Position numbers and translations under genes: made by a program. 11,196 nt of DNA from Methylophaga sp. (lineage in GTDB: Bacteria > Pseudomonadota > Gammaproteobacteria > Nitrosococcales > Methylophagaceae). The notes beneath the pieces are model-generated. The model ran no database searches. It had not been told where the DNA came from and worked only from the letters and a program-made list of their open reading frames with translations. Below are positions 1,502-11,196 of this stretch, piece after piece; the stretch's first letter is position 1; each line of letters opens with the position of its first letter. The stretch covers positions 69,068 through 80,263 of the forward strand of contig NVVK01000012.1 of assembly GCA_002733335.1 (NCBI GenBank). Direction: 5' to 3'.

Positions 1502-4500
1502 TTATTCAAGCTGAATCCAGCTTTGACGCCCAAGATTACTAGAGCCATTCAGTGGACAAGACCCACCTGCACATCGACCGCCAATTTCACAATACGCACC
1601 AGCACCGCCCGTCGTAGTACATGAAACCTCTCCATTTGAAGCTACAACCACTGCACACGTTCCACCACCGTAAATTACACACTTTGCGGATCCAAAAGTA
1701 TCTGCGCCAGTTATCGTTGGAAGTTCGCCAGAGCTACGATCAGAAAGCGCGACACTGCCCCCCCCTGGAAGGCTCAATATAATGGGAGTACTCGGGATAC
1801 CTGAATCAGATTTCACGCCGCTTACTGCCGTACTTTGAGCATCGCCACTACTATCTGTCCAATCAGAAAAATCGTTAACTGAGAATTTGCCATCACCATC
1901 TATATCAAAAGGTGTCTCACTAAAACGTGATCCTGTTGCTGCATTTAGACTTAACGTCCAACCACTACCACCACCATCACAGGGATCTGCAGCAGGAAGC
2001 AGTGTAGAAAGAATGAGCGCATCTCCCCTCACCACCATAGCTGAAACTACACGTTCACCCTTGTTATCAAGCGGAGACGCACTACTATCTATCAAGTCCA
2101 AGCGCCAACCTTTATTGTCAACGTGAGATTGCCAACCAGGAACACCAATACTATACCCTGCAACTAACCAATTAATAGGACCATTTGCCGAGGTAACCCG
2201 TACCGATGTGCCTGAAGTTGTATGTACAATATCAGCAAGAATTTCTTGAGAAAGCAAATCTGCTCGCGTAATGCCTGATGAACTTGAGCCATAATCCCAG
2301 AGGCCATACATTGTCTGCGTTACTTGACCTGTGTCAGTATTATCCGAAGTGCCTATATATCGACCAGTCCCAAAATTTAAAATATAGCCAGCTAATGGTC
2401 CACTTGGATGCTCGCTTACGACGATAGGCACGGTGATAGGTTGTAAGCCACTCGAACCATCTGTCGCGGTGAACATAGGTTTTGCAATCCCTGCTGAAAC
2501 ATAGCCATAACTAAAATCCCAGTTACTCGACGCTACATCACTAATATCTATATTCCAGACATTGCCTCGCAAATCTCCAGCATAAATTCTATCAGCAATC
2601 ATATCACCATTAGTATCAATTACTGTTGGTGTCGACATACCATTTAAGGTTCCACTGCCCACACCAGTATCAAACTTATGAACCGTTCCATAGCTACTAC
2701 TACTATTAAACTCAACAATATAAAGCACTGCTTTGCCGTTAACACTATTATAGCCATTACCAAAAATAGCGGCCCAACTACCATTATTCAGTCTTACAAT
2801 ACTGGGTTTACTGAAGCTGTACCCCATATCAACATCATCCGTTGAAGTAAACTCCCACATCCCTTTGTGTTCAGCAATAGTCGACTCGCTTTCCCCTGAT
2901 GGAACAGTTGTCACATCTAAAGCATATATGCCCTTGCCACCGCCTCGCAGTCCACCCACAAGCACAGAATGCCAAGCCCCTGAATAATGTACATCGCCGG
3001 TTGCCGGAGCATCATCCACATAATAACGATGATTAAAGCCCTGACCAGCGCTTGGTTTATGCGCCAAGGCATTCAAGTCAGGAAGTAAAACACGAGGAAT
3101 ATAGGCATATTTCTCAGCACCTGTTGCAGCATCAAATGCATGCAACATGCCGTCATTTGCACCTACATATAACATAGAATCACGTGCACTATGCGTTGCA
3201 CGAAAATCACTATAATTAGCCGTGTACCAACTATCAGGATAGAGCTGTCTGGGTGTGCCTACATAGGTTGGTTCACTATGGACAATATCACCTAATGTAT
3301 GTGTTCTTGCTCGAAACTGAACATCATCCTGGCCTCGAATATAATTAAGTTGTGCCTGCCCAAAAGCAACGTTTTCAACAATGTTTGGCGTAAAGCGAGT
3401 GCTTAATAATATTTTCTGACTATCACTTAAACCTGCCCACGTAAACGGTTTTCCTGCGCCACTCGCATCTAGCGTGAAAATATTTCTAGATCCTGGTGCA
3501 AGCACATCTAGTTGGCCTTGAGCGCTCCATTCTGCAGGCTCAATAAAGATACCTGATGACGTTAAAGTATAAGATTTAACATCTCCCGTCCACTCACCAC
3601 TGGTAAATATCGTTTGATATACCCGTGTAGAATTTGTAAGAATTGTTGAGTTAGCGCTAAGAGAGCTTGCCGATCCACTTGCAGCCAAAGCCGTTAAAAT
3701 TGCTTCTTTAAGTTGCAAAATTAATTGTTCAGGATTATCTGCCTTGTAATATTTTCCTCTACTATTATAAGCAGCATGCCATAAATCATCGATTTTATAT
3801 GCATTGGTAGAATTAGGATCCCCCCCCCAAGTTGATGACTCCGTCAAAACTGAGGCACCTGATGCATCAGGGTTTCCAGGCCAACCATCAGCAGCAATTA
3901 AATCGGTTAAATCAGGGTCATCAACTAATGAACCTGAGACACCGAAACCAATTCCTATCGTTGTCAAATGTTGTTTATTATTTAGATCAAATCCATCGGT
4001 AGGCACTTCATTTGCCAAAGAAGAAAGATCTTCATCATAATATTTTTTTGCCACATCGGCTAAGGTGTCAGTATAGGCATCTCCATCCACATTTGAAATG
4101 CCTGGACCACTCCCATTCCAATAGCCATCAGTTAACATAATGGCATAATTTTTCTGACAACTTTCTGTTATTGGGCTCGTTGAATGATTGTTTGTACCAG
4201 CGCCAAGATTGGGGCCCCGACCTGCAAAATATTCACCGGCGCGCTCTAACGCAAGCAGTAAGGGCGTACCTGTTGCCGACCATGCATAGCTATACATTGA
4301 ATTTCTTATGTTGTTATTATGAACCGTTCTATCTGTATCCCCATTGCCTGAACCAGCACCATCAAAAATATCTTTAAAAAGTACAGAAATATTGTTACCA
4401 CTCCGTTTTTTAGTTCCCATTAAACCGTAGTTAACATCCGGAATTTCAGCTATTAGATTGGCAATTGCACCTTTAGCAACAAATGAACGTTTACGACTAT

Positions 4501-6847
4501 ATTGATACCAATTGGCTGTATTTTCTTGTATTTGTGACAAAGGTCGACAAGAAGCCGCATTATCTTTATCTTTACCCAGTACCTTTATACAAAGGGCTGT
4601 ATCAGCATAGATCGCAGTAGTATCCCAACTATCTAATACCCTCGTATCAGACATGGCTACGCGCATCCCACTCAATTCTGTACCAGTAAAAACAGTGCTA
4701 CCATTACCCGCTGCACCCAGTTTATCATCTGCATCCCAATAATAATGGCTAGAACGATTATAAACCGTATCGGTATATAACGGTTCACCTTTCAAATGCG
4801 GTGTTCGGCGTACTTTTTGTACTATGATTTCCGAATCTTTTACCTCTACACGATAATGTGAGTCCCAAAGATCTACTACTCCATCACCAGCACTACCATC
4901 AGGGTTTAAATTTAAATAGCTAAAACAAACATGTTGACCTGCAGCATGAGCCGTCCCCGTTGCGGGATCAACTACGCCTGCAGCATTGTAACTAGCGGCA
5001 ACATCCGCTGCCGTAATCGTATATCCTCCTGATCCACCGCATTTGCTATCCCCCAGCCTCCACTCTGGCCTGGTTCTTGACGGTAAAGTTCCGGCATCAT
5101 CAAGCCAAACCTCATAAACAAAACCAGCCTGAACACTTTCAGGGCTAGCATCAACTGCACCATATTCTGTTCTAGGGCGCGCTAAATCAGTTGTAAGGCT
5201 ATAACCTGCAGTGCCTGATTGCGGGTTACTACGTGCACAATTAAATTTATTTGAACAGCCGCTGGGCAATACTTCCGTGATGTTAGGCCAAACACTATAT
5301 TGGCTGTTAGGGCTATAGTACAAAACATTGAAGTCTGCAGATCGTGCACGCCAATCAACTAGTAAAGGAAAGGGATCATGTTTACTCATGCCGTGTTTTG
5401 TATCAGCAGCCCAAGTAGGCATTGTTACATCAACATTAGGCGTACGAGGCGTACCAACCCAATCATCTGAGCGAATATAGCGTGGAACAACAGCGGGGTC
5501 AGCTAGCTGTATAAAATCCAGTTTCCCTGGATTCTCCTCACTCTTCGCTACTTTATTACTAGGGTTATCAATAGCGGTCTCCGTTGATGCAGGATAATTG
5601 CGTGGCATATAAGAATTAGGGACCATACATTTGTTGACAGCTGTATAATATTTCATCGGACTTTCTTGACCACGACAGGCTTTCTCATCAGATTTATAAT
5701 ATATATTATCCGTTAAATGCTGAATATAACGGTAATTAGCACTCCTGTATTCCGTCGTACTGTCTTTCTCATTATATGAGCCATCATTACCAATACCATC
5801 ACCATTAATATCAAAGCGCGCTCTTCCTGATGTCGTGGTTGTATAATTTTGCAGATACTCATTGTGATACTCACCCGTCCTGCTATTTAATGGCCCATTA
5901 GCCGTTATTGCTCCTGTAAGCGGATTAACCGTAACGGCCCCCGACCAACCATTAACCCATAATGGACGGTTTGCATGAGGTGCATGATGGAGGATCCTAA
6001 ACTTAGTCGAAGTATTTTTCTTCCAAGTATCGCCATCATCTTCGCACGTCTTTTTGAGCGCCTTATTATCAAAAGTTGTCCTCCAAGTATCAAGCTCTGG
6101 ACCAACATTACTCCATGTCTCCCTATAATACGCTCCGCCTCCTGTATCTTGTGCATTAGGGTGATTGCCGCCATTCCATTGCCACGGCGACGAACTCGGG
6201 CCAAAATCACCGGTATGAGCAAATATGTTTTTGCTTTGCGTTAAAAAAGTAAAAATACCCTCCATATTTGGAAGCCAATTTATAGCATTAGCGCCACTGG
6301 GGGGGGTGGGAGGCGTAGGGGGGGTGGGAGCCGCTTGACAATATCCAACAGGATACTCCCAAAAATAGAGATGCTGAAGTATTAACCGCCAATCATCATT
6401 TGCGGCTATAGGTGCGATAAAAGTTCTTTCAGAGTCATTTCTATCATTATCATCGTTCAGATATAACTCGTTAAAACAAACGCCATCAGCATTTTTATCA
6501 TAACAATATCCTGTATATGAAGACCAAGTAGCATCGACCACTTCACTTGTGGGTGTATCAGACCAGCCAACCCAACCTCCTCGCGCCCAATAACGCATAA
6601 CATCATGATCATAATTTTGAGCTTTCCAATGTGGAACAGCTAAAACTTCCCAATCCATCGAGCCTGAATCATCAAGAATAAACATGACATTAGGCGTGGC
6701 AGACTTATCAATAAACAAAGGGCTTTGAGCGATATCAATTGCCAAAACGGCATTTGAAAAAAAGAGTGATGTAAGCAATAAAACACTTATATTTAGCTTT
6801 TGTAATTGTATCTTTATATTTTTAATATTCATAATTAGATTACCCAT
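1502..6847 (-). CDS. pilY1: type IV pilus tip-associated protein PilY1 (PilC family)
   Basis: PilY1/PilC is an exported calcium-binding adhesin and mechanosensor that caps type IV pili with the minor pilins and supports pilus assembly. The 1781-residue product starts with a Sec signal peptide (hydrophobic core ~20-33, predicted cut after AVLA, ~36). VWA MIDAS motif DDSGSM is at 59-64; FNVLYYSPNSQYSVW, a PilY1 landmark, is at ~506-520. The second VWA half includes MLTDGYWNG at ~904. The C-terminal beta-propeller (Neisseria PilC domain) begins near GDIVHSEP, ~1186. A calcium loop DTNGDMIAD lies at ~1409, and an EF-hand-like DIDGDGKFS at ~1648. The tail is Cys-rich and ends GRQSWIQLE. P. aeruginosa PilY1 is about 1160 aa, so this one is unusually long. 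The start at 6847 has AAGAAG 7 nt upstream; an ATG at 6832 is the alternative. G/C homopolymers occur at residues ~174-184, ~1007 and ~1695. Last gene of the pilus operon. Confidence 0.95.
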   Translation of the reverse strand: MGNLIMNIKNIKIQLQKLNISVLLLTSLFFSNAVLAIDIAQSPLFIDKSATPNVMFILDDSGSMDWEVLAVPHWKAQNYDHDVMRYWARGGWVGWSDTPTSEVVDATWSSYTGYCYDKNADGVCFNELYLNDDNDRNDSERTFIAPIAANDDWRLILQHLYFWEYPVGYCQAAPTPPTPPTPPSGANAINWLPNMEGIFTFLTQSKNIFAHTGDFGPSSSPWQWNGGNHPNAQDTGGGAYYRETWSNVGPELDTWRTTFDNKALKKTCEDDGDTWKKNTSTKFRILHHAPHANRPLWVNGWSGAVTVNPLTGAITANGPLNSRTGEYHNEYLQNYTTTTSGRARFDINGDGIGNDGSYNEKDSTTEYRSANYRYIQHLTDNIYYKSDEKACRGQESPMKYYTAVNKCMVPNSYMPRNYPASTETAIDNPSNKVAKSEENPGKLDFIQLADPAVVPRYIRSDDWVGTPRTPNVDVTMPTWAADTKHGMSKHDPFPLLVDWRARSADFNVLYYSPNSQYSVWPNITEVLPSGCSNKFNCARSNPQSGTAGYSLTTDLARPRTEYGAVDASPESVQAGFVYEVWLDDAGTLPSRTRPEWRLGDSKCGGSGGYTITAADVAASYNAAGVVDPATGTAHAAGQHVCFSYLNLNPDGSAGDGVVDLWDSHYRVEVKDSEIIVQKVRRTPHLKGEPLYTDTVYNRSSHYYWDADDKLGAAGNGSTVFTGTELSGMRVAMSDTRVLDSWDTTAIYADTALCIKVLGKDKDNAASCRPLSQIQENTANWYQYSRKRSFVAKGAIANLIAEIPDVNYGLMGTKKRSGNNISVLFKDIFDGAGSGNGDTDRTVHNNNIRNSMYSYAWSATGTPLLLALERAGEYFAGRGPNLGAGTNNHSTSPITESCQKNYAIMLTDGYWNGSGPGISNVDGDAYTDTLADVAKKYYDEDLSSLANEVPTDGFDLNNKQHLTTIGIGFGVSGSLVDDPDLTDLIAADGWPGNPDASGASVLTESSTWGGDPNSTNAYKIDDLWHAAYNSRGKYYKADNPEQLILQLKEAILTALAASGSASSLSANSTILTNSTRVYQTIFTSGEWTGDVKSYTLTSSGIFIEPAEWSAQGQLDVLAPGSRNIFTLDASGAGKPFTWAGLSDSQKILLSTRFTPNIVENVAFGQAQLNYIRGQDDVQFRARTHTLGDIVHSEPTYVGTPRQLYPDSWYTANYSDFRATHSARDSMLYVGANDGMLHAFDAATGAEKYAYIPRVLLPDLNALAHKPSAGQGFNHRYYVDDAPATGDVHYSGAWHSVLVGGLRGGGKGIYALDVTTVPSGESESTIAEHKGMWEFTSTDDVDMGYSFSKPSIVRLNNGSWAAIFGNGYNSVNGKAVLYIVEFNSSSSYGTVHKFDTGVGSGTLNGMSTPTVIDTNGDMIADRIYAGDLRGNVWNIDISDVASSNWDFSYGYVSAGIAKPMFTATDGSSGLQPITVPIVVSEHPSGPLAGYILNFGTGRYIGTSDNTDTGQVTQTMYGLWDYGSSSSGITRADLLSQEILADIVHTTSGTSVRVTSANGPINWLVAGYSIGVPGWQSHVDNKGWRLDLIDSSASPLDNKGERVVSAMVVRGDALILSTLLPAADPCDGGGSGWTLSLNAATGSRFSETPFDIDGDGKFSVNDFSDWTDSSGDAQSTAVSGVKSDSGIPSTPIILSLPGGGSVALSDRSSGELPTITGADTFGSAKCVIYGGGTCAVVVASNGEVSCTTTGGAGAYCEIGGRCAGGSCPLNGSSNLGRQSWIQLE
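1758..1765. repeat. mononucleotide tract, C8 on + (G8 in pilY1 coding strand)
   Basis: Eight consecutive C on the + strand encode Gly-Gly-Gly in the motif LPGGGSVAL near the PilY1 C-terminus. Long G/C runs are rare by chance in DNA this AT-rich and are prone to slippage. A one-base change here would alter only the last ~85 residues, including the Cys-rich tail. Confidence 0.85.
3820..3828. repeat. mononucleotide tract, C9 on + (G9 in pilY1 coding strand)
   Basis: Nine consecutive C on the + strand read as TGG GGG GGG G in the gene and encode Trp-Gly-Gly followed by Asp (residues ~1007-1010), after the VWA half that contains MLTDGYWNG. Loss or gain of one base would shift the frame before the beta-propeller. 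It is the longest G/C run in the window. Confidence 0.9.
6299..6328 (+). repeat. G-quadruplex motif / paired G8 and G7 tracts in pilY1
   Basis: On the + strand (template for pilY1) there is G8, T, G3, the 7-nt loop AGGCGTA, G7, T, G3. This satisfies the G3+N1-7 consensus for an intramolecular quadruplex. In the gene it reads as C-tracts encoding the proline linker APTPPTPPTPP at residues ~173-183. Both the quadruplex potential and the 7-8 nt homopolymers make this a plausible instability site. Confidence 0.85.
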
Positions 6848-6879
6848 TCAAATTCTTCTTACACCTATTTAATATGCCT

Positions 6880-7443
6880 TTAATTGCATGCATCAAATCT
6901 ATATGTTGTTTGTAGTGTCACAGCACTGTTTGCATCCGGGCCATAGCCCCTAGCTGTTATTCGATAAAAACATTCCCGCGATGTTGCCGCGCCCATCATA
7001 ACAATCGACTCTGCATGCATAAACTCAATAAAATAATGTGGTGTTCGCGCTACATCGTCGTTGTTAACGTCCTTGTCTGCATCGCCGACATAATTACATG
7101 CAGCGGCATCCCATCTCGCTTGATCATCAAAGTCTTCTCCATTTAAGACAATTTCACATGATTTAGATGGATCGGCTAACACTGTTTGACTTTGCGCCGC
7201 AACTATTAATTGTGAATCTGCATCAGCCAAAAGAAGTCCTTCTGCTTGGCGTAATGCTGTTTCTGCTAATTGAAACGCTACATTATCATTGCGACTATTG
7301 CTTGCCATGCGTTCTTCCATTATGGTTGTACGCATCGCACTCACCGCAAGAAGTGTAATTAAAACCAGCATAATTAAGGCAATCGCAAGCACCACACCTT
7401 GCTGAGTATGGCGTGGGTTTATTGCATAATAATTATACTTCAC
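6880..7443 (-). CDS. pilX: type IV pilus minor pilin PilX
   Basis: PilX is the minor pilin that caps the priming complex and carries PilY1 to the pilus tip, comparable to GspK in type II secretion. The 187-residue product has a 16-residue basic leader ending TQQG, followed by the hydrophobic helix VVLAIALIMLVLITLLAVSA. Position 5 of the mature protein is Ile rather than Glu, as expected for PilX. The family signature MRTTIMEERMASNSRN, then QLAETALRQAE, follows the helix. The globular part contains four Cys. The start is a GTG at 7443; an in-frame TAG lies just upstream and no ATG is available before the membrane helix, so GTG is the only sensible choice. No clear Shine-Dalgarno sequence precedes it, which predicts low expression. 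It is separated from pilE by 128 nt and from pilY1 by 32 nt. Confidence 0.93.
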   Translation of the reverse strand: MKYNYYAINPRHTQQGVVLAIALIMLVLITLLAVSAMRTTIMEERMASNSRNDNVAFQLAETALRQAEGLLLADADSQLIVAAQSQTVLADPSKSCEIVLNGEDFDDQARWDAAACNYVGDADKDVNNDDVARTPHYFIEFMHAESIVMMGAATSRECFYRITARGYGPDANSAVTLQTTYRFDACN

Positions 7444-7478
7444 TGATTTTACACACTATTTTAGTCCCCAAAAAAACC

Positions 7479-7506
7479 ATCTTATATGTTTTTAGACTTT
7501 TTTCAA
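7479..7506 (-). promoter_or_regulatory. possible sigma-70 promoter upstream of pilX-pilY1
   Basis: On the minus strand TTGAAA (7501-7506) is followed after 16 nt by TAAGAT (7479-7484), 5/6 and 4/6 matches to the consensus hexamers. It sits in the 128-nt gap between pilE and pilX, the only sizeable gap in the operon. Such matches arise easily in AT-rich DNA. I see no convincing terminator in the gap, so readthrough from pilE is also expected. Confidence 0.3.
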
Positions 7507-7571
7507 TCATTACAACTATTCATCCCAATATTACAAGATGATTTATTCTTTTTCTGTGATTAAACTCACCT

Positions 7572-7973
7572 TTACCAACATCCTGATACCGCCGGATTTT
7601 TTGTATTTGTGCTGTCTAAGCTTAAAGTCCCACAGTAATCTGAAGCTTGTGGACCTGTGGGTGTAGCCGTTAACGTAAATGCCGTAGAAGAAGGAGTAGC
7701 AACAGATAAGTCATAAAACACTGTTGTCCCTTCTTGTGGTGACGTTCCAAACGGCAGGGCAGGGGGAGCTCCTGCAGTATCTGTATATTTTGAATTTGTG
7801 GTGTAATATCGCTCCATAAACCCTGCCAGCTCAACTAAATCTGCTTCCGCAACTCCACGACGGGCATCCCTTATTGCACCTTGATAACTTGGGTAAGCGA
7901 TTGCCGCTAAAATCGCAATTATAGCGACAACAATCATTAACTCTACCAGTGTAAAACCTTTATTTCTCTTCAT
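7572..7973 (-). CDS. pilE: type IV pilin, PilE-like minor pilin
   Basis: This 133-residue prepilin has the shortest leader in the cluster, MKRNKG, followed by FTLVELMIVVAIIAILAAIAYPSYQ. It carries the PilD cleavage Gly, the methylated Phe and Glu5. The stretch RRGVAEADLVELAGFMERYYTTNSKY is characteristic of PilE-type minor pilins. The C-terminal DYCGTLSLDS...SGCW gives the two Cys of the D-region disulfide loop. It should be processed by prepilin peptidase and built into the pilus or its priming tip complex. AGGTGTAGG precedes the ATG, 17 nt after the end of pilW. In the usual gammaproteobacterial order pilE follows pilY1; here it lies between pilW and pilX. A role as major pilin cannot be excluded from sequence, but the conserved middle region favours the minor pilin. 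Confidence 0.9.
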   Translation of the reverse strand: MKRNKGFTLVELMIVVAIIAILAAIAYPSYQGAIRDARRGVAEADLVELAGFMERYYTTNSKYTDTAGAPPALPFGTSPQEGTTVFYDLSVATPSSTAFTLTATPTGPQASDYCGTLSLDSTNTKNPAVSGCW

Positions 7974-7990
7974 TATTTAGTACCTACACC

Positions 7991-9019
7991 TTAATTAAGT
8001 CTATTGCGTATGGCGATTGTAGATGTATAGATTTTTCTTAAACGATTATCAGGTATCGCAGCCCCTGACACATCAACACCATTATAAAAATAGCCTTGTG
8101 GAGATGTAGCAACAAAATCATCTAGACTTCGCACCAACAAACTAATCCTAATACTAATTACTTTTTCCATATCTAAGTCAGCCGTATTTGCTGGAACAAA
8201 ATAAACATTATCACCACTGCCGCGTTGCCCGTAAAGAATTTGCATATTTTCAATACCTGGAACTAATTGTTGCCCTCCTATTGCTAAGCCTGGCGTGTTA
8301 ATGTCTGGCCCGATGGTATATGTTATCCCTGCTAACCCTGTGTTGCCAGCTGTCGCTGCTGCGAGAAGATAGACCTTTGCGTTAGTACCATAGGTAAAAC
8401 TTAAGTTGCCTGTTTTATTACCTGGTGCAGGAGGACTACCTGTTGTATGTTCTAGCGTTGTTCCACTTGAAGGGTTATTCGTAATCTGAACAATATCACT
8501 AAATTTACAGTCTGTTACTAAAACAATGTCACCTTCTGTGAAATTATTTGCACCACTGCTATCGACTGGTAACTCATCTGATACCAGTGCTAACGGAGCT
8601 GTAAGTGCCACGCCTGAGCCTAGAGATCCGAGTGCTCTGATTGAGATGCTATCTGAACCATTTAGCCCATCATTATCTGTACCACCAATAGCGCCAGACA
8701 ATGAACTAAAAATAGGTAAGGTTTTAAATTGATATTCAGCTGAAGAGGAATCAAGATCGTTGATGGCGTTATTAATCATTTTTCCGCGCCCGCATACCCC
8801 TCCATCAAACGCTACCTTTCTAATATCTTCTGTTAAAAAATACATTGCAAAACGTGCATTTTCTTGCATTCTCGATAAATTTTCCTGCATTCTATTGGTT
8901 TGCTTTGTCCCTAAAAATACCTGAACAACTCCTGCCATCAAAAATAAACCGAGAGTCAATGCAATCATTATCTCAATGAGGGTAAACCCTTTTTGAGATG
9001 TGTTTTTCAATGTATTCAT
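7991..9019 (-). CDS. pilW: type IV pilus minor pilin PilW
   Basis: PilW is a large minor pilin (342 residues, normal for the family) and is equivalent to GspJ in the type II secretion tip. The leader MNTLKNTSQKG is cleaved before FTLIEIMIALTLGLFLMAGVVQVFL. The next region, RMQENLSRMQENARFAMYFLTEDIR, is the PilW signature. The C-terminal half contains NMQILYGQRGSGDNVYFVPA and VISIRISLLVRS, also typical. Two Cys are seen in the globular region (GGVCGRG and VTDCKF), the pair expected for a disulfide. The start ATG overlaps the pilV stop as ATGA, with GAGG 8 nt upstream, so translation is probably coupled. It works with PilV, PilX, PilE and FimT to prime pilus assembly and to display PilY1. Confidence 0.94.
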   Translation of the reverse strand: MNTLKNTSQKGFTLIEIMIALTLGLFLMAGVVQVFLGTKQTNRMQENLSRMQENARFAMYFLTEDIRKVAFDGGVCGRGKMINNAINDLDSSSAEYQFKTLPIFSSLSGAIGGTDNDGLNGSDSISIRALGSLGSGVALTAPLALVSDELPVDSSGANNFTEGDIVLVTDCKFSDIVQITNNPSSGTTLEHTTGSPPAPGNKTGNLSFTYGTNAKVYLLAAATAGNTGLAGITYTIGPDINTPGLAIGGQQLVPGIENMQILYGQRGSGDNVYFVPANTADLDMEKVISIRISLLVRSLDDFVATSPQGYFYNGVDVSGAAIPDNRLRKIYTSTIAIRNRLN

Positions 9020-9477
9020 GGTTCAAACCTCGCTACAAAGGAGGCATCACTCGCATCAAGAATACCATTTCTATTATCATCCCATGCAACCGTAATACTA
9101 TACACACCCGCTGCAACACTAATATCACCATCTCCTAGAGGTAACGAATTAGCTATATCTCTTTTCCATTCAAATAAATCATGTCCTGCTTGCTCCGTAG
9201 CAGTACACCCTATAACCGGTACGGCTATACAGTTTGTCTTTTCCGCTGCTGAATTTTTATAATCTTCCAGTTGTATTAGATTATTTCTATCTGTATTTGA
9301 TCGCATTCGATCGGTCATATCATAAGCAAGTTGGGCCGCTTTGCCTCGATGCTCTGCACTAAGATTGTTACGCAAAGAACTTATTTGAAGCCCAGCAAGA
9401 CCTAATAAGCCCAAAGCTAAAATAACAACGGTAATTAAAACCTCTATTAAAGTGAACCCTTTATTTTTTATCATCAT
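9016..9477 (-). CDS. pilV: type IV pilus minor pilin PilV
   Basis: PilV corresponds to GspI and forms part of the minor-pilin core that links to PilY1. The mature part begins FTLIEVLITVVILALGLLGLAGLQISSLRNNLSAEHRGKAAQLAYDMTDRMRSN; the ALGLLGLAGLQ and AAQLAYDMTDRMR blocks are PilV hallmarks. A disulfide is likely from TNCIAVPVIGC. I chose the ATG at 9477 because it gives a 7-residue leader, MMIKNKG, and starts 10 nt after the fimT stop. A longer frame begins at an ATG at 9513, overlapping fimT by 26 nt and giving a 19-residue leader; family leaders are usually short, so it is less likely. Neither start has a strong Shine-Dalgarno sequence, which suggests coupling to fimT translation. Ends in TGA overlapping the pilW start. 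Confidence 0.92.
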   Translation of the reverse strand: MMIKNKGFTLIEVLITVVILALGLLGLAGLQISSLRNNLSAEHRGKAAQLAYDMTDRMRSNTDRNNLIQLEDYKNSAAEKTNCIAVPVIGCTATEQAGHDLFEWKRDIANSLPLGDGDISVAAGVYSITVAWDDNRNGILDASDASFVARFEP

Positions 9478-9487
9478 TTTTATCTTT

Positions 9488-10009
9488 TTAAGAACATGTT
9501 GTTGCAGGAGCATCTATTCTTGCTCTACCTAAACTGTTAATGACTATTTCTCGGGATGAAGCCACATCTCCATCTAAGCATAAATAAAATCGTCCATTAA
9601 ATGATGTACTCATTAACCCTGTCGGCTGGTAACTAATTTTTGTATTAAAACCAGAGTTCGCTGTTAATGTATATCTATTTGGTAGCGCATCATGTGTTTT
9701 TAAAAGTTCATCATTTGCAATATCAAAATCACCACTATCATCAGTATCAATATAGACATCCCAACCATCTTTCCAGTCAAGATCCACACTACTCTTACTT
9801 TGAATAATAACCTCTACATTTCGCATTGCAGCTTCACTACGCGCGTAACTTAATGCCGTAAAAAAATCATTTGCATTTGTCGTCATTCGACTATCCCGTA
9901 TTAACCCCATAAAACTAGGAATACCAATAGTCACCATAATTGCAGCAATAGCTAAGGTAATCATTAATTCTAATAATGTAAAACCTTGTATTTTATTGAT
10001 TTTTATCAT
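9488..10009 (-). CDS. fimT: GspH/FimT-family minor pilin (FimT/FimU)
   Basis: First gene of the pilus operon. The 173-residue prepilin has the leader MIKINKIQG and then FTLLELMITLAIAAIMVTIGIPSF. The following SRMTTNANDFFTALSYARSEAAMRN is the GspH/FimT signature. The globular domain has a beta-rich end with FYLCLDGD and a final ATTCS, giving two Cys for a disulfide. It is equivalent to FimU of P. aeruginosa and GspH of type II secretion and should be a subunit of the priming/tip complex. FimT paralogues in other bacteria bind DNA for natural uptake through a positively charged C-terminus. Here the tail is short and not notably basic, so the structural FimU role is more likely. The symbol is uncertain between fimT and fimU. 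No strong ribosome-binding site precedes the ATG. Confidence 0.9.
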   Translation of the reverse strand: MIKINKIQGFTLLELMITLAIAAIMVTIGIPSFMGLIRDSRMTTNANDFFTALSYARSEAAMRNVEVIIQSKSSVDLDWKDGWDVYIDTDDSGDFDIANDELLKTHDALPNRYTLTANSGFNTKISYQPTGLMSTSFNGRFYLCLDGDVASSREIVINSLGRARIDAPATTCS

Positions 10010-10463: not shown

Positions 10464-10952
10464 CTACATTTTTCTTTCATAGACAATAAAACTATAAGGG
10501 TGCTCATTTTTAGCATCCGCCAAATGATCTTCTCGACTTATTTGCCGCCACTCTATTGAATGCCATTTAGGAAACCAGGTATCACCTTCTAAAGAAACAT
10601 CAACTAAGGTTAGATATAATTTATCAGCCATTGGTAAAAACTGCTGATATAACGACGCGCCTCCCATCACCATAGCTTCCTCTGCATCCTTACATTCCGT
10701 TAAAGCCTCTTCCATTGAATGCACAATCGTACAGTCTTGTGCTGTATATTTTTTATCATTCGTCATAATAATATTCTTTCGGCCCGGCAACACTCTCCCT
10801 ATCGACTCATGGGTGTTTCGCCCCATAATAATCGGTTTTCCCATTGTTACCTTTCTAAAATAGCGTAAATCGGCAGATAACTGCCATGGCAAATCATTAT
10901 TTCGGCCAATTAAACCTTGCTGATCGGTTGCTACAATAAGTGCTAATTTCAT
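10464..10952 (-). CDS. folA: dihydrofolate reductase, type I
   Basis: FolA reduces 7,8-dihydrofolate to tetrahydrofolate with NADPH, supplying one-carbon carriers for thymidylate, purine and methionine synthesis in the cytosol. The 162-residue product is close to E. coli FolA (159 aa). Visible motifs are IGRNNDLPWQLSADLRYF, with substrate-binding Asp28 (E. coli Asp27) and Trp23; PIIMGRNTHESIGR and LPGRKN of the NADPH site; the VMGGASLYQQF glycine pair; and YLTLVDVSLEGDTWFP. All key residues of a trimethoprim-sensitive chromosomal type appear intact. The ATG at 10952 has AAGG 7 nt upstream. It is transcribed away from the DnaA-box cluster that starts about 70 nt upstream, so its promoter adjoins that cluster and DnaA could influence it. 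The call is secure. Confidence 0.97.
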   Translation of the reverse strand: MKLALIVATDQQGLIGRNNDLPWQLSADLRYFRKVTMGKPIIMGRNTHESIGRVLPGRKNIIMTNDKKYTAQDCTIVHSMEEALTECKDAEEAMVMGGASLYQQFLPMADKLYLTLVDVSLEGDTWFPKWHSIEWRQISREDHLADAKNEHPYSFIVYERKM

Positions 10953-11021
10953 ATTACTACCTTACCTATAAGTCCTCTATAATAACATCTGTATAAGCCA
11001 TGAATGAAGTATAGAATAAGT

Positions 11022-11097
11022 TGTGGATAACTTTAGCTGTGGATAAAACAGCTACTTATCCACATGATAAAAAGAATATTAAAACAAGTTATCAACA
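11022..11097. promoter_or_regulatory. cluster of four DnaA boxes
   Basis: Exact TTATCCACA boxes lie on the minus strand at 11022-11030 and 11038-11046 (16 nt apart) and on the plus strand at 11056-11064. A one-mismatch box, TTATCAACA, is on plus at 11089-11097. The first two face the last two. The 13-mer TAGCTGTGGATAA around the second box is repeated inverted with one mismatch around the fourth. AGCTGT and ACAGCT also bracket the second box as 6-bp arms (11035-11053). Confidence 0.85.
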
Positions 11098-11109
11098 GCT
11101 AAAAACACA

Positions 11110-11133
11110 TTAAACTTATGATTTTAAACTTAT
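11110..11133 (+). repeat. AT-rich direct repeat, candidate DNA-unwinding element
   Basis: The 10-mer TTAAACTTAT occurs at 11110-11119 and again at 11124-11133, 14 nt start to start, 13 nt after the last strong DnaA box. Tandem AT-rich repeats of this size beside DnaA boxes are typical of duplex-unwinding elements. A second very AT-rich stretch (11182-11196) runs off the window. Confidence 0.5.
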
Positions 11134-11196
11134 AATATTCACTACCCACATATCTACAGGCAATAAACATCATCAACATAAGCTTTTAAATATATA

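Follow-up and report, generated by a model that had tools for sequence, protein, structure and literature searches.

A priA-adjacent cluster of DnaA boxes as the very likely chromosome origin of a Methylophagaceae-type gammaproteobacterium

The stretch of DNA analysed here (the window; 11,196 nucleotides) forms the right end of contig C24 in the assembly of a Methylophaga sp., a 28-contig draft of 2.5 Mb that is 86% complete. The last gene within the window is folA, which is transcribed away from the putative origin described below and forms its left neighbour. The gene beyond folA encodes a TIGR02647 protein. Further to the left, and still near the putative origin, positions 1502-10009 are occupied by a PilY1 gene, assigned by Pfam, and a run of pilin-like genes recognized by eye, while tatC is located at 89-823.

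Contig C24 is taken to continue into contig C5, the two being joined by a 32-bp overlap of their ends and by the conserved gene order. In the joined sequence a divergent gene with PriA domains, priA, which encodes the replication-restart helicase, starts at position 11218 and closes the gap to the right of folA. It is followed on C5 by the gene for arginyl-tRNA synthetase (argS), after a gap of ~60 bp, and then by a gene for a SPOR-domain protein. An extension to the right had been proposed in the original prediction in order to look for dnaA, dnaN, rpmH or gidA. This extension could be made, but the first genes encountered were priA, argS and the SPOR-domain gene, and none of the four expected genes was among them. 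No ORF is present between folA and priA in the host. The features of the gap are compiled in Table 1.

Table 1. Coordinates of folA and of the sequence features between folA and priA, numbered from the first base of the window.
Feature	Position	Strand	Description
folA	10464..10952	-	Type 3 dihydrofolate reductase; Pfam DHFR_1 4.6e-62; NCBIfam NF008037 above cut-off
DnaA box 1	11022..11030	-	Perfect TTATCCACA; member of the family triad
DnaA box 2	11038..11046	-	Perfect TTATCCACA; 16 nt from box 1; conserved
DnaA box 3	11056..11064	+	Perfect TTATCCACA; opposite orientation; 18 nt from box 2; conserved
DnaA box 4	11089..11097	+	TTATCAACA, 1 mismatch; conserved position in the consensus from 37 aligned first modules
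Tandem weak DnaA boxes	11142..11158	+	CTACCCACA and ATATCTACA, 8 nt apart; on the unwinding side
Overlap of contig ends	11165..11196		Perfect 32-bp overlap of the end of C24 (window end) with the end of C5; leads into priA; gene order same in relatives
Three-base-phased element	11168..11179	+	Conserved CATCATCAACAT, from the alignment; position where DnaA-trios lie in other origins
AT-rich element, left part	11180..11196		Probable DNA unwinding element; ~21 bp more on C5 up to the priA start

Three perfect DnaA boxes and TTATCAACA within 76 nt, as described in the original prediction, were found again at 11022, 11038, 11056 and 11089. The three weak boxes that had been reported further to the right, each matching at 7 of 9 positions (two mismatches), are likewise present at 11142, 11150 and 11170, all on the plus strand. 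The surrounding stretch was correctly described as free of genes, since 10953-11196 contains no closed ORF of at least 60 aa. The interval originally delimited, 11018..11196, includes the boxes but stops at the contig end, and the AT-rich part runs ~21 bp further. The number of boxes in the whole window is unremarkable, with three matches to TTATNCACA, a count reached in 13 of 200 shuffles. Boxes with two mismatches occur across the window at chance level (43 found versus 45 expected). Because these window-wide counts alone are not significant, the significance of the site comes from the tight clustering of the boxes and from their conservation. For three boxes within 43 nt a Poisson estimate gives ~4e-6 per genome, which agrees with the initial view that such a cluster is improbable by chance. 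The 2.5-Mb host genome contains 35 perfect boxes, and the folA-priA cluster is the sole group of three among them. GATC is absent from 11022-11217 of the joined sequence.

The boxes are adjoined by DNA that is predicted to open easily. The A+T content is 89% in 11172-11217, and within 31.2 kb the lowest stability of any 60-bp segment was calculated for the one beginning at 11172 of the joined sequence, which reaches 14 bases into priA. As far as can be judged from the sequence, an intergenic cluster of DnaA boxes and an AT-rich, easily opened element are thus found side by side. An alignment of 37 first modules, the host included (some relatives possess a second module, see below), revealed conservation of the strong boxes, box 4, the tandem weak boxes, a CAT/CAA element and the AT-rich end. 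In many relatives the tandem weak boxes are nearer to TTATCCACA-TATCCACAG than in the host. DnaA-trios are defined by three or more 3'-NAN-5' trios no further than 16 nt from a DnaA box. No such arrangement is present in the host module, where CATCATCAACAT fails the rule of three 3'-NAN-5' trios, and canonical DnaA-trios were rejected for the host. The rule is matched somewhere in 25 of 45 modules. We also considered 13-mers of the E. coli type. The sequence GATCTCTTTTATT, which resembles the E. coli 13-mer, occurs in a few relatives, and this was too thin for a claim.

The three strong boxes with their fixed spacing (the triad) were detected in 50 of 57 genomes of the family, every listed match having at most two mismatches at a limit of three, and a reversed control pattern yielded no match in the same 57 genomes. 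We regard this preserved spacing as the strongest evidence for the box cluster. In a class-wide sample searched with up to two mismatches, 4 of 369 genomes matched. All four are members of the family, and none of the 365 genomes outside the family matched. Carriers with species names are Methylophaga sulfidovorans DSM 11578, M. thiooxydans DMS010 and M. aminisulfidivorans MP; the site and its neighbours are conserved across four of the family's genera. When named genomes were scanned for folA, 80 loci were kept, and at 14 of them the fetched flank includes priA; by their folA coordinates all 14 correspond to genomes of this family. The remaining 66, some with short flanks, have no priA and no pair of perfect boxes within 120 nt.

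Loci of 39 relatives were opened, and the order folA, boxes, priA was observed in 36. The three exceptions are G029, with neither boxes nor priA, G055, which lacks both on a short contig, and G031, where the triad is present and the contig ends before priA. The triad and priA are 189-215 bp apart in all 36 relatives (196 bp in the host), while folA is 71 to 1910 bp away. The original prediction of an oriC beside folA holds insofar as folA is the left neighbour. Judged from these distances, however, the constant neighbour of the boxes is priA, not folA, which can be up to 1.9 kb away. The gene order can be written as TIGR02647-folA-(0 or ~1.5 kb)-boxes-priA-argS. The additional ~1.5 kb between folA and the boxes is found in 12 of the 36 relatives (G001, G004, G007, G011, G014, G021, G024, G028, G037, G038, G040 and G043). 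The one extra stretch that was read, from G038 (L106:10775-12391), contains an ORF of 538 aa that by eye resembles a membrane transporter and is not gidA. In G047 alone, priA (L072) matches as two overlapping pieces, which may reflect a frameshift or an error in the sequence.

The triad was unmatched in seven family genomes (G049, G002, G016, G022, G053, G055 and G029). The contig of G049 starts inside the triad, with two perfect boxes at bases 11 and 27 followed by folA. G002, G016, G022, G053 and G055 are drafts with a completeness of 67-86%. Among the seven, a strong match to PriA was obtained for G053 only. G029 (1.1 Mb, rated 100% complete; L253) is without the triad and gave only weak helicase matches to PriA. 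In this genome argS and ftsN are located on the opposite side of folA.

In the host, dnaA is located on another contig, where the adjoining genes look by eye like rnpA, rpmH and dnaN. Its surroundings contain one perfect box in 3.5 kb, and the GC skew does not change sign there over four 5-kb bins. The 3.5-kb dnaA loci of the host and five further family members contain 0-1 boxes when up to one mismatch is allowed, so that no box cluster lies beside dnaA in any of these six genomes. In five relatives dnaA is 75-217 kb away from the triad.

For the host, the cumulative GC skew was followed over the joined 120 kb of the draft. Its minimum falls into the 5-kb bin ending at 60 kb, and the boxes are located at 59.8 kb. 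The skew amounts to -0.076 on the left and +0.090 on the right, with the expected sign in 25 of 29 and 26 of 29 2-kb bins, respectively. In G047, a single contig of 3.1 Mb, the skew is negative in each of the ten stretches that begin at 1380 kb or before and positive in each of the ten that begin at 1430 kb or later. The turn was narrowed to ~1420-1440 kb by extra stretches, and the local cumulative minimum at 1432 kb is 7 kb off the triad (1438.7 kb); dnaA, at 1655.6 kb, is well within the positive arm. The 5-kb bins at 1410-1415 and 1430-1435 kb, left of the triad, are positive, and the bin around the triad is negative. In G038 the skew is negative at 295-315 kb and positive at 315-335 kb. 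Here the triad is at 305.7 kb and the local minimum at 315 kb (9 kb off); the negative arm includes dnaA (160 kb). For G039, the local minimum (1987 kb) coincides with the triad (1988 kb); its left arm is mixed, and two sampled stretches consist mostly of N. In all three relatives the sign of the skew switches at the triad or no more than ~20 kb away from it, and 123-217 kb from dnaA.

In the 4-kb flanks of the triad the right-hand skew is the higher one in 35 of 36 relatives, and both flanks have the expected sign in 28 of 36; the divergent genes at the site add to this local skew. A dif-like pattern was found in four of six genomes searched, the host not being among the four. The dif-like site is 34 kb (G047) and 116 kb (G038) from the antipode of the triad, and 251 and 262 kb from the antipode of dnaA. 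In G080, which is from another family and served as a methodological control, the sign change falls between 1440 and 1600 kb, in the region around dnaA (1509 kb). The values are small and mixed (+0.020 and -0.006 on the two sides of dnaA, +0.011 left and -0.013 right of priA), with a return to negative skew at 1350 and 1440 kb and positive skew from 1600 kb onwards.

A skew analysis had been recommended together with the original prediction, and a skew minimum with a box cluster at dnaA had been named as the result that would speak against an origin at this site. We looked for this combination and did not find it: the minimum of the joined 120 kb lies at the boxes, and three relatives turn at or near the site, not at dnaA. 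The boxes, their conservation, the skew minimum of the host and the lack of a cluster at dnaA all favor the initial oriC reading. The local minima 7-9 kb off the triad in G047 and G038 weaken this reading very slightly. We consider it highly probable that chromosome replication in this Methylophagaceae-type gammaproteobacterium starts in the folA-priA gap, its DnaA-dependent oriC. The same placement beside priA is very probable in nearly all of the family members sampled.

The E. coli oriC is composed of strong boxes, weak boxes and an AT-rich unwinding region. In the folA-priA gap, the three strong boxes, two of which point left and one right, would be the loading site of DnaA, which would then extend over box 4 and the tandem weak boxes toward priA. 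The highly AT-rich DNA immediately before the start of priA would open, the two replicative helicases would be loaded there, and the forks would leave both ways.

The boxes might instead constitute a DnaA-controlled promoter of priA and/or folA, with expression tied to the DnaA level and the origin located elsewhere. Their position between divergent genes is compatible with this explanation, as is the distant G080, which has two perfect boxes upstream of priA though its skew turns around dnaA. However, a promoter would explain neither that the host skew reaches its minimum here and that of the relatives turns nearby, nor the 200-bp module with its extremely AT-rich end and the absence of any other triple cluster from the genome, and folA may be as distant as 1.9 kb. 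A simple sigma-70 scan of 10900-11196 detected no promoter-like site, which is weak evidence. Consequently, we regard a promoter with a remote origin as improbable, but a promoter might coexist with the origin at this site.

Sites of the datA and DARS type are likewise clusters of DnaA boxes, and the local skew minima of G047 and G038, 7-9 kb from the triad, would be in line with a DnaA titration or reactivation site near the origin that is not the origin itself. Such a site would be at odds with the skew minimum of the host, with the conserved AT-rich unwinding-type element attached to the boxes, and with the lack of any alternative cluster among all perfect host boxes or at dnaA; we consider it very improbable. 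A foreign or plasmid-type origin inserted here, for instance with an integrated element, is extremely improbable, and nothing was found in its favor: no match was obtained in 72,556 plasmid records, the conservation of the site and its neighbours extends over four genera, and the host has no ORF between folA and priA.

Returning to the folA-priA gap as the origin, its history can be approached through the neighbouring family f2. Five genomes of this family possess 5-9 boxes within ~160 nt at dnaA, and the cluster of G059 begins immediately at the stop codon of dnaA. A dnaA match was obtained for five f2 genomes, in which priA is ~15-27 kb from dnaA, and no boxes were found within 600 bp upstream of priA in six f2 genomes. 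Because f2 has the box cluster at dnaA and priA is only ~15-27 kb away, the most likely history is a shift of the origin inside the origin region, from dnaA to the gap before priA, in an ancestor of the family. In G058 (one contig, rated 98% complete) no DnaA match was obtained; records related to G058 start at dnaA, so the record ends may cut through the gene. At dnaA of G080, four boxes are distributed over 1.6 kb. In addition, two perfect boxes facing each other are located ~145-160 bp before the priA match of this genome (L308) and represent a possible DnaA-controlled priA promoter. An independent priA-linked origin in G080 was considered and dropped, because the skew turn is nearer to dnaA.

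A second triad beyond priA and before argS, in the same orientation, was found in six relatives (G006, G007, G001, G009, G020 and G028; L152-L157). G033 (L158) has two tandem modules ~320 bp apart, both before priA, at 149 and 472 bp to the right of the start of folA. Within each of the six genomes the first and second copies are 72-77% identical, whereas the second copies of G001 and G007 are 94% alike. Hence, a recent duplication was rejected, and the second module is evidently an old copy. Its right half was found by fuzzy search in five of the six genomes; the row of G020 aligns with an indel. According to a tree of PriA and ArgS calculated by a quick method (36 rows), three changes are needed for the second module, at least two of which are forced by starred branches. 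The host has a single module. In the six relatives the two modules around priA suggest a bipartite origin, as far as the sequence level is concerned.

Tentatively, and with considerable doubt, we propose that the origin of this family is bound to priA. In this scenario oriC would have left dnaA for the priA upstream region, possibly starting from a DnaA-controlled priA promoter. Origin opening and priA transcription would then share the same DNA, and some members would loop priA between two DnaA clusters.

Origins are usually located beside dnaA or, in enteric bacteria, gidA. The priA-linked family and the dnaA-linked neighbour family provide a comparable before-and-after case of an apparent origin relocation. 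In this family, an origin prediction that uses dnaA as indicator gene could miss by 75-217 kb. In the literature that was searched, we found no work on oriC of Methylophaga or Piscirickettsiaceae or on a folA-priA location. Methods papers (PMC10225481, PMC6323995) describe oriC as usually, not always, lying beside dnaA. For some gammaproteobacteria two candidate sites were predicted and the one at gidA was retained, according to PMC10225481 and PMC6323995. In Francisella, priA is mentioned in PMC5859110 among the marker genes near oriC, together with dnaA.

Like the dnaA-linked oriC of the five f2 genomes, the site described here is intergenic and contains boxes in both orientations and an AT-rich flank. 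It differs in that the cluster lies between folA and priA, at the distance from dnaA given above for five relatives. The gidA-mioC placement of the Enterobacterales oriC (PMC10225481) is likewise unlinked to dnaA in a gammaproteobacterium, and strong boxes, weak boxes and an AT-rich region are common to both. Here, however, the nearest genes in the host are folA and priA, the module lacks GATC and the arrangement of the boxes is another one. The basal unwinding system, as outlined in PMC8287927, consists of tandem boxes followed by DnaA-trios. The same order of boxes, three-base-phased element and AT-rich DNA is found here, but with CATCATCAACAT as the element, which in the host deviates from the trio rule.

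Bipartite origins have been reported in Gram-positives, mollicutes and epsilonproteobacteria, where the spacer is usually dnaA, as stated in PMC4285127 and PMC5043019. In B. subtilis and Helicobacter pylori, two box clusters flank dnaA (PMC5043019 and PMC4285127). The six relatives likewise have two box modules flanking a replication gene of ~2.2 kb. In contrast to the known bipartite origins, this spacer is priA rather than dnaA, both modules carry an AT-rich end, and the host has a single module.
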